Below are positions 3,807 to 16,359 of a stretch of 64,000 bases of DNA, piece by piece. Each line of letters begins with the position of its first letter. Positions within the stretch are counted from its first letter, which is position 1. Source of the DNA: a virus. Where the stretch lies: positions 1 through 64,000 of the IMG/VR virus record IMGVR_UViG_3300007609_001138. One strand, written 5' to 3'. The translations under genes were made by a program, and so were the position numbers. The notes beneath the pieces were generated by a model. It saw only the letters and a list, made by a program, of their open reading frames with translations, was not told the DNA's origin and made no database searches.

Positions 3807-3978
3807 ACTTCCTAAACGTAAAATATTCCGCTTTCTGGTTAATACTTTTGATCAAGTAAACTTTTTGATTCAAGATCGATTCAATCTCAATCCAAAGCGC
3901 ACAATTCTAGAAGCACAGCAAGACCTTGTGACTCTCAATGAACTTGAAAGGACCATTGGCAAAAGTCTTGGCCTATAA
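3799..3978 (+). CDS. Small basic hypothetical protein, GTG start (59 aa)
   Basis: This gene fills the apparent gap between 3806 and 3988. It begins with GTG at 3799, preceded by an AGAGG ribosome site, and overlaps the previous gene by 8 bases. The protein starts MIKLPKRKIFRFL and is basic at the N-terminus, then helical to the C-terminal ELERTIGKSLGL. Its TAA stop lies inside the TATAAATA late promoter box of the following gene. No family recognised. Confidence 0.65.
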   Translation: MIKLPKRKIFRFLVNTFDQVNFLIQDRFNLNPKRTILEAQQDLVTLNELERTIGKSLGL

Positions 3979-11752: not shown

Positions 11753-11784
11753 TTGACACGTCGGGCGTAATCAACTATTATAAT
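11753..11784 (+). promoter_or_regulatory. Sigma70-type promoter for the MoxR gene
   Basis: TTGACA at 11753-11758 is followed after 17 bases by TATTAT at 11776-11781; an overlapping TATAAT lies at 11779-11784 with 20-base spacing. A start near 11788 would leave a short leader with an AAGGA ribosome site before the ATG at 11814. This is a host-polymerase promoter inside an otherwise late region. Confidence 0.8.
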
Positions 11785-11813: not shown

Positions 11814-12914
11814 ATGTCCACTTCTACAGAACATCGCAGTGTTACCTCTGTAGGTGCACGTAAACTTATTAAAAAATGCTTTGCTAAAAAACGTCCAATC
11901 TTTCTCTGGGGTCCTCCAGGAATTGGCAAATCTGAACTTGTCGAAGGCATTGCCAAAGAATCAAATGGTCTACTATTAGACCTACGGTTAGGGTTAATGG
12001 ACCCAACAGATGTACGTGGCATGCCCTATTACAACAAAGAATCAGGTAAAATGGAGTGGGCTCCTCCTATTGACCTTCCAACTGAAGAACTTGCTAGTCA
12101 ATATCCAGTGGTAGTGCTGTTCCTTGACGAGATGAACGTTGCGGCACCTAGTGTGCAAGCCGCGGCATATCAGTTGATTCTCAATCGTCGAATTGGACAG
12201 TATACGCTGCCAGACAATGTTGTAGTAGTTGCCGCAGGTAACCGTGAAAGCGATAAAGGTGTTACATATCGCATGCCCACTCCGCTTGCCAACCGTTTTG
12301 TACACGTTGAAATGCGTGTGGATTATACCAGCTGGTTAGACTGGGCCACTGAGAAGGCTATTCACAAAGATGTTATTGGTTATATTTCGTTTGCCAAGCA
12401 GGATCTCTACGACTTTGATGCAAAAGCCGCTAGTAGAGCATTTGCTACACCACGGTCTTGGACCTTTGTAAGCGAGCTAATCGAAGACAACGATTTAGAC
12501 GAGCAAAGCCTAACTGATCTTATTGCAGGCACGGTAGGCGAAGGACTTGCAGTCAAGTTCATGGCGCACCGTAAGGTTGCAAGTCAAATGCCTAACCCAA
12601 CTGACATTCTAGCTGGTAAAGTTAAAAACCTGGAAATCAACGAAATTTCCGCAATGTACAGTTTGGTTATTGCCATGTGTTACGAACTGCGCGAGTCGCT
12701 CGACAACGACAAAGTTAACGATAAGCAGTTCCACAAGATGGCAGATCTTTTCTTCCGCTTTATGATGGATAACTTTGAAACTGAGTTGGTTGTAATGGGT
12801 GCACGAACTGCTCTCAACAACTATCAGTTGCCTGTTCAGCCCACCAAGCTTAAAAACTTTGACGAGTTTCACGAGCGTTACGGCAAATACATTTTAGCCG
12901 CTAACGAATCGTAA
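11814..12914 (+). CDS. MoxR-family AAA+ ATPase
   Basis: MoxR ATPases act as chaperones that remodel or load metals into partner proteins, usually with a VWA-domain partner. Walker A is GPPGIGKS at residues 33-40, Walker B VLFLDEMN about 101-108, and an AAAYQLILNRR sensor-type helix and PLANRF arginine-finger region follow. The 366-residue length fits the family. The likely partner is the VWA protein at 14804-16069. The gene has a strong sigma70-type promoter in front and a perfect terminator behind, so it forms its own transcription unit with expected early expression. Substrate unknown. Confidence 0.9.
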   Translation: MSTSTEHRSVTSVGARKLIKKCFAKKRPIFLWGPPGIGKSELVEGIAKESNGLLLDLRLGLMDPTDVRGMPYYNKESGKMEWAPPIDLPTEELASQYPVVVLFLDEMNVAAPSVQAAAYQLILNRRIGQYTLPDNVVVVAAGNRESDKGVTYRMPTPLANRFVHVEMRVDYTSWLDWATEKAIHKDVIGYISFAKQDLYDFDAKAASRAFATPRSWTFVSELIEDNDLDEQSLTDLIAGTVGEGLAVKFMAHRKVASQMPNPTDILAGKVKNLEINEISAMYSLVIAMCYELRESLDNDKVNDKQFHKMADLFFRFMMDNFETELVVMGARTALNNYQLPVQPTKLKNFDEFHERYGKYILAANES

Positions 12915-12920
12915 CCAGGT

Positions 12921-12975
12921 CAGGGCCGGTCTGTTAAATAACATAGGGCGAATGTTAGACCGGCCCTGTTTTTTT
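12921..12975 (+). terminator. Rho-independent terminator after the MoxR gene
   Basis: A perfect 12-bp stem (12921-12932 with 12957-12968; arms CAGGGCCGGTCT and AGACCGGCCCTG) is followed by seven T (12969-12975). The 24-base loop holds a late promoter box. Confidence 0.92.
12934..12940 (+). promoter_or_regulatory. Late promoter box TTAAATA in the terminator loop
   Basis: The box sits wholly inside the loop of the MoxR terminator. The predicted start (about 12946) is after the left stem arm, so a transcript from here carries only the right arm and cannot form the hairpin. The next gene starts at 12986. Confidence 0.6.
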
Positions 12976-12985
12976 GGAATAAACA

Positions 12986-14113
12986 ATGATTTACGACATA
13001 CCGCAAGATTTTGTTGGGACATACGATACCACACAAATAGACTTTTCTGCTTGGGCACTAAAAACAATTCAGAAAAAATGGCCTCATGTAACTGATCTAT
13101 CTACTATCCATGAAGTTTTATCTGTTAAAGAAATTGCACAAGTAACCAGATATGTACAAGACGAGACTAGTAAATGCACAGAATTTATGTCTATGCTGGA
13201 TCAATTCTTCGCTGATAATGTTTCTCCTTTACTAGACAACAATGACTATCTTGTACAACGCCAGCCTAATCTTAGATTGGTCATTCCGGATCAAGAAATA
13301 CACGGACAACGCATTAATTTTCACTGCGATGCTATAGTAGGTGGCGGAAGAGGCAGCATGACTGCATGGATTCCTATCACTGATGCATACGACACCAATT
13401 CTCTGTGGATAGCAGACGTAGATATAAGCAGAGAATTGGTTACAAATTTTATACAAAAGCAATGGACTGCTGAGAAATTTGATAGTGAATGTTTAAAAGC
13501 GGCAAAAAATATTTCGCTACAACCTGGAAAATTTTTATTGTTTGATCAAGAAAGAGTGCATGGATCTATCAATAACACTACCAATAAAACTCGTCTTAGT
13601 TTTGATGCTAGGTTTCTAGTTAAGGGGCAAGAAACTTATAAAAGAATACCTGGTGGTTATTTTCGTTTACCTGAGGATTATAAAAGAGATCAAACCACTT
13701 TACAGGATTATAACCTGCTGGTATATCTTAATCGCAACACTGAATTTACAAAACACATACCGTTTAACATGCAAAGAGCATTTATAGACTCTTATTCCAG
13801 AAAGAAAAATTTATCAAATGTAAGTGTAGATTTTTTGCCACAACAGATACACGAAGGAATGTTTTTGCACTGGCTTCCGGGTTTAGAGAATTTTATTCCG
13901 TTAAAATTTGATGGAATAATGATGTTGAGTATTTTTGCACTGCCTGATGACAAGACTCGTAGAGAATTTTTATGTAATCTTGCTGTACAACACAATAAGA
14001 AATTATTTTTTGCCAACGAAGAATTATGCATCGAAACAGCAGAAGATATTGAAAAAATCAATGAATATTATGAATACGCAGTATGGCAAGATGGAGATTT
14101 TCCCTGGGAATGA
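12986..14113 (+). CDS. 2OG-Fe(II) oxygenase (StrG-like) fused to a TIGR04323/LIC12192-type domain
   Basis: Residues ~90-215 match iron/2-oxoglutarate oxygenases related to StrG of streptomycin clusters and to the sporadic carbohydrate cluster oxygenase: H113-x-D115 (NFHCDA), the distal His192 in RVHGS and R203 (RLSFDAR) for 2-oxoglutarate. Residues ~240-370 match the separate sporadic carbohydrate cluster protein family (TIGR04323): a PFNMQRAFIDSYSRK block, HWLPGLENF, MLSIFALPDD, and FFANEELCIETAEDIEKI. Both families are known from surface-sugar gene clusters. Fusion into one chain supports joint action on a sugar. The gene has a late box and overlaps the next by 4 bases. Confidence 0.82.
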   Translation: MIYDIPQDFVGTYDTTQIDFSAWALKTIQKKWPHVTDLSTIHEVLSVKEIAQVTRYVQDETSKCTEFMSMLDQFFADNVSPLLDNNDYLVQRQPNLRLVIPDQEIHGQRINFHCDAIVGGGRGSMTAWIPITDAYDTNSLWIADVDISRELVTNFIQKQWTAEKFDSECLKAAKNISLQPGKFLLFDQERVHGSINNTTNKTRLSFDARFLVKGQETYKRIPGGYFRLPEDYKRDQTTLQDYNLLVYLNRNTEFTKHIPFNMQRAFIDSYSRKKNLSNVSVDFLPQQIHEGMFLHWLPGLENFIPLKFDGIMMLSIFALPDDKTRREFLCNLAVQHNKKLFFANEELCIETAEDIEKINEYYEYAVWQDGDFPWE

Positions 14114-14373
14114 TACTTAATAGTCAAGTAATACACGTTCCCAAAGAATGGCAAGACTCTTCATTGCCTGCTGTTGAACGTTATTACAACAACAGTGATG
14201 ATTTATTAAAACAAAATCTTTGGAAAATACGACAAGAGTTTGGCACCAAAGGCCAACGTTGGTGGTGGAAAACTGTTTTTGTAACCAACGATGAAACAAA
14301 GACTTTAGAATGGCATGTAAGGTATATCTTTAAGTGCGCACATGATGCTGTGTTATTTCAGCTTAAATATTAA
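14110..14373 (+). CDS. Small hypothetical protein (87 aa)
   Basis: It starts in the ATGA overlap with the oxygenase gene. The protein is basic and Trp-rich (QRWWWKTVF) with no recognised motif. The left arm of the palindrome at 14362-14385 lies in its last codons. Confidence 0.7.
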   Translation: MILNSQVIHVPKEWQDSSLPAVERYYNNSDDLLKQNLWKIRQEFGTKGQRWWWKTVFVTNDETKTLEWHVRYIFKCAHDAVLFQLKY

Positions 14374-14385
14374 ACAATATTTAAG
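14362..14385 (+). promoter_or_regulatory. Palindromic late promoter box
   Basis: Perfect 10-bp arms (CTTAAATATT and AATATTTAAG) around AAAC. Each arm contains TTAAATA, one on each strand. The + strand box (14363-14369) would start transcription near 14375, 21 bases before the ATG at 14396. No minus-strand gene lies in position to use the other copy. A T-rich tract does not follow, so it is not a terminator. Confidence 0.5.
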
Positions 14386-14395
14386 AACTATAACA

Positions 14396-14752
14396 ATGAA
14401 GTACACTGTGCAACGTCTTGACAAAAGATTCAACTATTTTGAGTGGTTTAAGTATCATATCAGCTTCAGTGCCCGCATCACTGTGAGTCAAGGACCTTTA
14501 CATTTTATTGAATCGCAACAATGGTTTACAAACACATATGGATTCAGTGCTGAAATACGCATATGGCAGGAGATAAAAACTCACTACGCAATGCGCAATC
14601 AATTCAATCTCACATCTGGGCCAGGCGATTTTAGCGACAATTTACCTTTTGCTGTAAATCCTCACTGGAGTTGGAGTAATGCTTATCGTGATTTACGAAT
14701 TTATATCGCCGATGATCAAGAACTCAGTTTGTTCAAACTAGCAATAGGTTGA
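14396..14752 (+). CDS. Conserved phage hypothetical (118 aa)
   Basis: The ATG at 14396 is chosen because longer starts fall in the previous gene. The protein is aromatic-rich with a C-terminal block (NPHWSWSNAYRDLRIYIAD) that recalls small conserved proteins of T4-like marine phages. The TTGACA -35 of the next promoter begins in its last codons. Function unknown. Confidence 0.7.
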   Translation: MKYTVQRLDKRFNYFEWFKYHISFSARITVSQGPLHFIESQQWFTNTYGFSAEIRIWQEIKTHYAMRNQFNLTSGPGDFSDNLPFAVNPHWSWSNAYRDLRIYIADDQELSLFKLAIG

Positions 14753-14777
14753 CAGCATAACCAAAATCAACTATACT
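14749..14777 (+). promoter_or_regulatory. Sigma70-type promoter for the VWA gene
   Basis: TTGACA at 14749-14754, 17-base spacer, TATACT at 14772-14777. A GAGGAG ribosome site precedes the ATG at 14804. The architecture is the same as the promoter before the MoxR gene, so the two partners are probably expressed together. Confidence 0.82.
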
Positions 14778-14803: not shown

Positions 14804-16069
14804 ATGTCTACTACAGCCACAAAAGACAAAAACAAACTTGCCGATCTCGTTGGTCCCACTGACCCAGATTTAGATAGAGAAGTTCGAGAAATTCTTGTTG
14901 GCGCACGTATTGGCATGCTGTTACGTGCCAGCTTCTTTGGCAATCTTGCCACTCGACTCAAGCTAGTAAACGCCGACGAGTGGTGTCCTACTGCGGCAAC
15001 AGACGGACGGCATTTTTATTACAACACTAGATTTATCAAGATGCTGAAGCCGCGAGAAGTCGAGTTTCTTTTTGGACATGAAGTATTGCATGTGGTCTAT
15101 GATCACTTAGAGCGCACAGGCGATCGCGACAGAATGCTGAGCAATATTGCACAGGACTATTGTGTAAACAGCGACCTAAAGAAACACGGTGTAGGCGAGT
15201 TTATTACCACTGTGGAATGTTTGTATGACAGCAAGTACGAAGACTGGAGTTTTGAACAGGTCTACGATGATTTGCTAGAAAATGCAGACGAATCAGCAAC
15301 ACAAAAAATGCTAGATAAAGTGTTAGACGAACACTTGGAAGACATCTTAGATGGCGCAGGCTCTGGACAAGACACCAATGACGAAGGTAAACCTGGACCG
15401 GTGAAACTCACAGATGAAGAACGTCAGCAGATCAAAGATGAGATCAAAGAAGCAATGATCAGTGCAGCGCAAACTGCCAAAGCTAGCGATATCCCTGGCA
15501 ACGTTCAACGCATGATTCAGAATCTCACTGAACCTAAGATGAACTGGCGAGATCTTTTGCAACAGCAGTTGCAAAGCACCATTAAAAATGATTATACATT
15601 TTCACGTACAAGTCGTCGCAGTTGGCACATGGATGCTATTTTACCCGGTATGGATACCACAGATGCTATCGATATTGCTGTAGCAATTGATATGAGTGGT
15701 AGTATCTCCGAAGAGCAAGGACGCGACTTCTTGAGTGAAGTGCAGGGTATTATGGATACGTTTACTGATTATCGTATTCACTTGTTTACGTTTGACACAC
15801 AGGTTTACAATCCACAGGACTTTAACAGCGATAACATATCAGACATAACCGAATATCAATGTCAAGGTTGGGGCGGTACTAGTTTCGAATGCATCTTTGA
15901 CTATCTCAAAGAAGCAGACATTGAACCCAAGAAACTGGTTACATTTACAGACGGTTATCCGTTTGGCAGTTGGGGTGATCCAGACTATTGCGATACTGTT
16001 TGGATTATTCACAGCAACGATGATCCAAATCCTCCATTTGGTACCTGGGCCAAATACGAATCACAGTAA
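14804..16069 (+). CDS. DUF2201-like metallopeptidase/VWA protein, MoxR partner
   Basis: The N-terminal domain has an HExxH zinc-binding motif (H92-E93-x2-H96 in GHEVLHVVYDH), as in the putative metallopeptidase domain of DUF2201 proteins. A linker of acidic helices (residues 150-230) leads to a C-terminal von Willebrand A-like domain with a metal-ion-dependent adhesion site, D296-M-S298-G-S300, and later GGTSFE and TFTDGYP blocks supplying further ligands. Proteins of this type pair with MoxR ATPases. Its matching promoter supports pairing with the ATPase at 11814-12914. Whether the HExxH is active as a protease is not known. Confidence 0.87.
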   Translation: MSTTATKDKNKLADLVGPTDPDLDREVREILVGARIGMLLRASFFGNLATRLKLVNADEWCPTAATDGRHFYYNTRFIKMLKPREVEFLFGHEVLHVVYDHLERTGDRDRMLSNIAQDYCVNSDLKKHGVGEFITTVECLYDSKYEDWSFEQVYDDLLENADESATQKMLDKVLDEHLEDILDGAGSGQDTNDEGKPGPVKLTDEERQQIKDEIKEAMISAAQTAKASDIPGNVQRMIQNLTEPKMNWRDLLQQQLQSTIKNDYTFSRTSRRSWHMDAILPGMDTTDAIDIAVAIDMSGSISEEQGRDFLSEVQGIMDTFTDYRIHLFTFDTQVYNPQDFNSDNISDITEYQCQGWGGTSFECIFDYLKEADIEPKKLVTFTDGYPFGSWGDPDYCDTVWIIHSNDDPNPPFGTWAKYESQ

Positions 16070-16096
16070 AAAAATACAATACGGGCATACAGGCGG

Positions 16097-16103
16097 TTAA
16101 ATA
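16097..16103 (+). promoter_or_regulatory. Late promoter box TTAAATA
   Basis: The predicted start is about 16109, two bases before the ATG at 16111, with no ribosome site between: a second candidate leaderless late transcript. Confidence 0.55.
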
Positions 16104-16110
16104 ACAAACT

Positions 16111-16359
16111 ATGGAAAACACTGAATCAGAAATCAATCTAAAAGTCGAAGATCTTGCAGTAATCAAGAGTATTATTGAAGTAGTAAGCCAACGTGGAGCA
16201 ATCCAGCCTGACGAAATGTCAACAGTTGGTGTTGTCTACGACAAGCTTAATATATTCTTGTCATCGCTTGCATCAGACCCACAAGCAGAAGTGTCCAGGG
16301 AACAACCCGAAGCTGAAAAACCAGTTACACGTTCTGCTAAAAAAACACCCAAGGAGTAA
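16111..16359 (+). CDS. Conserved phage hypothetical (82 aa)
   Basis: The first 55 residues (LKVEDLAVIKSIIEVVSQRGA, then YDKLNIFLSSL) are helical and recall a short conserved protein of cyanophage-like myoviruses; the C-terminus is a Lys/Pro/Glu tail. It lies three bases before the next gene, with which it likely forms a translational unit. Function unknown. Confidence 0.78.
   Translation: MENTESEINLKVEDLAVIKSIIEVVSQRGAIQPDEMSTVGVVYDKLNIFLSSLASDPQAEVSREQPEAEKPVTRSAKKTPKE

Follow-up and report, generated by a model that had tools for sequence, protein, structure and literature searches.

A T4-like virus of bacteria appears to carry the start signal of a late gene in the hairpin loop of the preceding early gene's stop signal, within about 55 bases. 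Within the first 64,000 nucleotides of IMG/VR record IMGVR_UViG_3300007609_001138 (the whole stretch analysed, hereafter the window), we read the 55-bp element at 12921-12975 as the intrinsic terminator of an early sigma70-driven moxR transcript with a T4/Aeh1-type late promoter (TAAATA, predicted +1 at 12946) built into its loop, and we put the probability of this reading at about 0.7. Transcripts arriving from upstream would hold both arms of the hairpin, form its stem of 12 bp and end in the T7 tract behind it. RNA polymerase carrying the phage's gp55-type sigma factor would initiate late inside the loop, and the resulting RNA, having no left arm, would run past the T tract through the oxygenase gene and on into the small genes that follow.

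A conserved terminator-like hairpin follows moxR

The element lies between two genes, a moxR-type AAA+ ATPase gene (11814-12914; phrog_1297 ATPase, E 8e-101; PF00004, E 1e-7) and a predicted oxygenase gene with a PhyH domain (12986-14113; PF05721, E 6.5e-6), the proposed late gene; these and all features below are on the plus strand unless noted. Stem search and folding gave a left arm, CAGGGCCGGTCT, at 12921-12932 and a right arm, AGACCGGCCCTG, at 12957-12968, with additional support for the left arm from two compensatory pair changes in a relative, L258. As the earlier note had described, the arms form a perfect 12-bp stem followed directly by a T7 tract (12969-12975), the predicted 3' end of moxR transcripts, so that the element has both the stable GC-rich stem and the adjoining T tract of an intrinsic (Rho-independent) terminator. 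It folds at -25.9 kcal/mol, against a mean of -14.4 for shuffled sequences (z -4.7; 0 of 200 shuffles as good), and no terminator-like hairpin elsewhere in the window is as strong: no other stem of at least 12 bp has a T run (the runner-up has 10 bp). The 24-nt loop carries TTAAATA, also as first described, at 12934-12940 (core TAAATA, 12935-12940), and TAAAT is unpaired in the fold. Folding further revealed an inner hairpin that the earlier description lacked, AACAT-AGGGCGA-ATGTT at 12940-12956, whose arms (AACAT, 12940-12944; ATGTT, 12952-12956) enclose AGGGCGA and overlap the 3' end of the box; a homologous ACAYRGGGCYRTGT hairpin occurs in many relatives.

The terminator after moxR is conserved, as supported by comparison with relatives: 133 of 156 have a hairpin of at least 8 bp at this place (4.2 in shuffles), and in 115 of 156 it has a tail of at least four Ts (1.2 in shuffles). 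Comparison likewise supports a sigma70-type promoter for moxR. In the window this promoter, TTGACA-17-TATTAT at 11753-11781, agrees with the consensus at 11 of 12 positions and is kept in the diverged L258; promoters matching at least 10 of 12 positions stand upstream of moxR in 131 of 151 relatives versus 4.7 in shuffles, and in all 12 of 12 cases with a box nested in the hairpin. TAAATA is not enriched upstream of moxR in relatives (15 versus 21.9). No sigma70 promoter was found between the hairpin and the oxygenase gene, and in the nested cases the next gene has none of its own; a sigma70-type promoter at 14749-14777 serves a VWA/metallopeptidase-like gene (14804-16069). Ordinary terminators occupy the same position after other phage moxR genes, as in the cultured Pseudomonas phage PA5oct (MoxR 50% identical), where the terminator is plain; theirs have a short loop and no box. 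A megablast of the region against cultured phages gave no match, and the Rfam hits were limited to tRNAs for the window and to tRNA and tmRNA for ten relatives.

TAAATA as a candidate late-promoter motif

In the 80 nt before the 57 called gene starts of the window, no other 6-mer is as enriched as TAAATA (8 versus 0.91 expected; P 5e-6 before correction for about 4096 words), and the enrichment is specific to the sense strand, with an antisense count of 1. Among relatives (68 non-redundant loci), the upstream count is 112 versus 21, with 29 antisense, and the signal is distinct from that of sigma70 (TTGACC / GCTATAAT). Neither the bare 7-mer TTAAATA (10 versus 14.9 expected) nor TATAAATA with one mismatch is enriched in the window, and the positional test was therefore used instead. 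TAAATA boxes in the record stand before baseplate, virion and tail-fibre genes, and one stands before an SbcC-like gene. The same record encodes a gp55-type late sigma factor as an intact 297-aa ORF (phrog_234, E 6.7e-26), and a gp55 homologue is present in 10 of 14 other records tested. These comparisons support TAAATA as the putative late box of this phage group.

As in T4-type late promoters, the loop box fits the late-type consensus of its own genome, which lies upstream of structural genes. Aeh1/T4-type gp55 promoters (PMC1524935, PMC2988020) share the TAAATA about one helical turn before +1, the absence of a -35 element and an encoded gp55 homologue; here, position -12 varies (T, C, G, A), and many sites in relatives are probably leaderless, which is not seen in T4. 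The element reads GTTAAATA and not the full TATAAATA octamer, and we liken the candidate box to the shorter Aeh1-type box (PMC1524935) without claiming the strict T4 consensus for it.

The spacing of the motif provides a predicted start site. Of 821 distinct sites in relatives, 58 have TAAATA exactly 11 nt before an ATG, compared with 14 where the distance is 10 nt and 10 where it is 12 nt, and permuted hexamers give no 11-nt peak, save words overlapping the box. Sites of this spacing were seen in relatives L002-L244 and in the window at 3976, 16098 and 48533 (minus strand). They probably belong to a set of late mRNAs without leaders, for which the T of TAAATA would be at -11. From this spacing applied to the loop, and from the Aeh1 late box, CTAAATA at -12 (PMC1524935), we infer a late start at 12946, matching the position of about 12946 given in the earlier note.

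The loop's 11-mer GTTAAATAACA recurs at a second late-type site, 16096-16106, which holds the TAAATA box (16098-16103) of gene 16111-16359. Another box from the upstream enrichment, at 14364-14369 before gene 14396-14752, is identical over at least 21 nt in L258; around it, at 14363-14384, lies a TTAAATA palindrome, CTTAAATATT-AAAC-AATATTTAAG, near-identical in L258. In four relatives (L030, L064, L068, L088), the gene after moxR is preceded by a TAAATA box inside a sigma70 promoter spacer, an arrangement of overlapping putative early and late promoters.

The box recurs in loops of related phages

TAAATA is found in 8 of 107 distinct post-moxR loops versus 0.57 expected from composition, and the 14 other arrangements of its letters occur in a mean of 0.57 loops (maximum 3). 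On the moxR tree the box label changes 6 times, with 4 changes forced by well-supported branches; excluding the window, which was picked for its box, leaves 7 of 106 loops and about 5 changes. Two box-in-loop cases, L066 (no T tract) and L072 (short loop), may be due to chance, and T tracts are weak in some nested cases (L018, L035, L066).

Near relatives allow the sharpest comparison, and among them L258 is 95% identical to the window in MoxR, 74% in the oxygenase and 49% at fourfold sites. Its stem differs by two compensatory pairs (C-G to T-A and T-A to C-G) and its leader beyond the T tract also differs; TAAATAACATAGGGCG, 16 nt comprising the box and downstream sequence, is unchanged. The inner hairpin can account for part of this conservation, namely that of the 3' half of the 16 nt. 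Comparison thus supports the presence of the putative box inside the loop beyond chance and its conservation between diverged close relatives. The late-promoter reading, originally a guess from sequence alone, has in this way gained substantial comparative support through the enrichment of TAAATA, the gp55 homologue, the recurrence in loops and L258.

Most relatives' post-moxR hairpins have no TAAATA, and homologous GGGC-type inner hairpins occur without a box, some as three-way junctions. Because the box is missing from most homologous hairpins, what is conserved is the terminator, to which the box is a recurrent and not an obligate addition. In many relatives (L012 and L076, for example) the next gene comes right after a simple terminator with no promoter visible between, indicating that a promoter there is not essential. 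In L036 and L040, the VWA gene comes directly next under a sigma70 promoter of its own, and the homologous loop, TTCAAAAACAC, is boxless, a pattern that is suggestive only. MAFFT aligned the hairpin stems out of register, and no covariance model was built from the alignment for that reason.

Other structures were also observed after moxR. L002, L003, L004, L010 and L067 have a three-way-junction hairpin in which a GACATAGGGCTATGTC arm is conserved and the promoter box is absent; L053, L073, L078, L080 and L081 share another conserved element, GGAGGC..GGGYTTTACTCCTTTCACCGTAAGTCCTCCC, whose CU-rich loop is like an anti-Shine-Dalgarno sequence; and the terminator loops GAGAC(A), GTGTGAA and GTGAGAGTC recur in L109-L139 and L120-L216. 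The ATG lies right at the end of the T tract in L012, L076 and L013. L012 and L076 also carry a Shine-Dalgarno-like GGAG or GGGAG upstream of the hairpin, a layout that could be a split ribosome site like that of T4 gene 25.

Predicted refolding of the 5'-truncated RNA

The earlier note held that a late RNA without the left arm cannot fold the terminator. In our folding models the 12-bp stem is indeed lost and the truncated RNA of the window folds more weakly (-6.8 versus -25.2 kcal/mol), but the claim was overstated, as GGGC (12946-12949) alone is still predicted to pair with GCCC of the right arm in a 4-bp helix. Where relatives of the GGGCTGTG type carry the box, their truncated RNA is modelled to fold 5' hairpins of 7-9 bp with the same right arm (-9.4 to -13.0 kcal/mol), because GGGCTGTG resembles the left arm. 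Several boxless members have the same GGGCTGTG-right arm pairing, so the promoter alone cannot explain this refolding feature.

A tentative extension, which we consider rather unlikely, is that the loop combines a late promoter with a second copy of the left arm at the start site (GGGCUGUG in relatives, GGGC here). The long RNA would pair its own left arm with the right arm as a terminator, the late RNA would pair its 5' copy with that right arm too, giving a protective hairpin at its 5' end, and such nesting would have arisen several times at the same gene. If so, one 50-bp stretch would both end and protect two overlapping messages.

Known systems and alternative explanations

The nearest precedent is T4 gene e, where, as at soc, 49 and I-TevI, an inhibitory hairpin of the mRNA has a late promoter within its 5' strand (PMC3014915). 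The two share a geometry in which the late promoter is inside the hairpin and late RNA without the 5' arm escapes the effect of the structure; judged by sequence only, the window also has a late-class box inside its hairpin. At gene e the right arm hides the Shine-Dalgarno sequence and AUG, whereas here a T7 tract follows the hairpin, the start codon is outside, and the target would be termination. A control scan of T4 recovered gene e and found no GC-rich, T-tailed stem that contained TATAAATA. Translational control of the gene e kind, by which the hairpin would hide the next gene's ribosome-binding site in long transcripts and the late RNA would free it, has this shared topology in its favor, but we give it only a very small chance: the start region (12972-12991) lies outside the stem and mostly outside the hairpin, and is predicted to be unpaired at 0.53 in read-through RNA versus 0.63 in late RNA, and a T7 tract marks a terminator.

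The element also recalls the PeSLs of T4-like phages, promoter-terminator cassettes described by Arbiol 2010 and Comeau 2014 (as cited in PMC4503421), in placing a compact terminator and promoter between genes of a T4-like phage. As the citing paper presents it, a PeSL is an early promoter beside a stem-loop; the box here is of late type and sits within the loop of a single-copy element. Relative to that account, the region between hairpin and oxygenase gene has no early, sigma70 promoter next to the stem-loop, and the cassette is not repeated, the window having a single T-tailed hairpin that encloses a box and each locus a single GGGC element. Papers describing a terminator loop with a late promoter inside did not turn up in the literature searched, which covered few subscription journals, and this is weak evidence.

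Two further explanations dispense with a late promoter as the principal function. The element could be only a conserved terminator, with an AT-rich loop formed by drift, an incidental TAAATA match and an oxygenase gene reached by read-through. The absence of TAAATA from most homologous loops, the relatives L012 and L076 with no promoter between terminator and next gene, and the lack of enrichment of the bare 7-mer in the window would all fit this. We nonetheless regard it as unlikely, given the 8 boxed loops against 0.57 both expected and averaged by permuted hexamers, the box and flank that stay the same in L258 despite 49% fourfold identity, and the loop 11-mer at the late-type site 16096-16106. 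Alternatively, the functional part could be the inner GGGC hairpin, within a regulatory RNA element (a protein-binding site, or a switch in which either of two 5' arms pairs with one 3' arm) in which the box is secondary. Conservation of the ACAYRGGGCYRTGT hairpin, the three-way-junction forms in L002, L003, L004, L010 and L067, the pairing that GGGCTGTG can form with the right arm in many members (z as low as -4.9) and the lack of an Rfam match for the element are compatible with such a role; its probability is slim, as the corresponding position in other relatives is taken by plain terminators of GNRA or UUCG type, showing that the GGGC element can be dispensed with, and only one copy of it lies beside moxR in the loci read.

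Implications

If the nested-promoter reading is true, a compact phage genome would split early and late transcription at a single site, where one message would end and the next begin on the same bases, and the sigma-factor switch alone would decide which gene is read. Related phages in which the box came or went form a concrete set for testing the idea. T4 uses this geometry to hide a ribosome site; with a terminator as its target, the principle would reach beyond translation to transcription.
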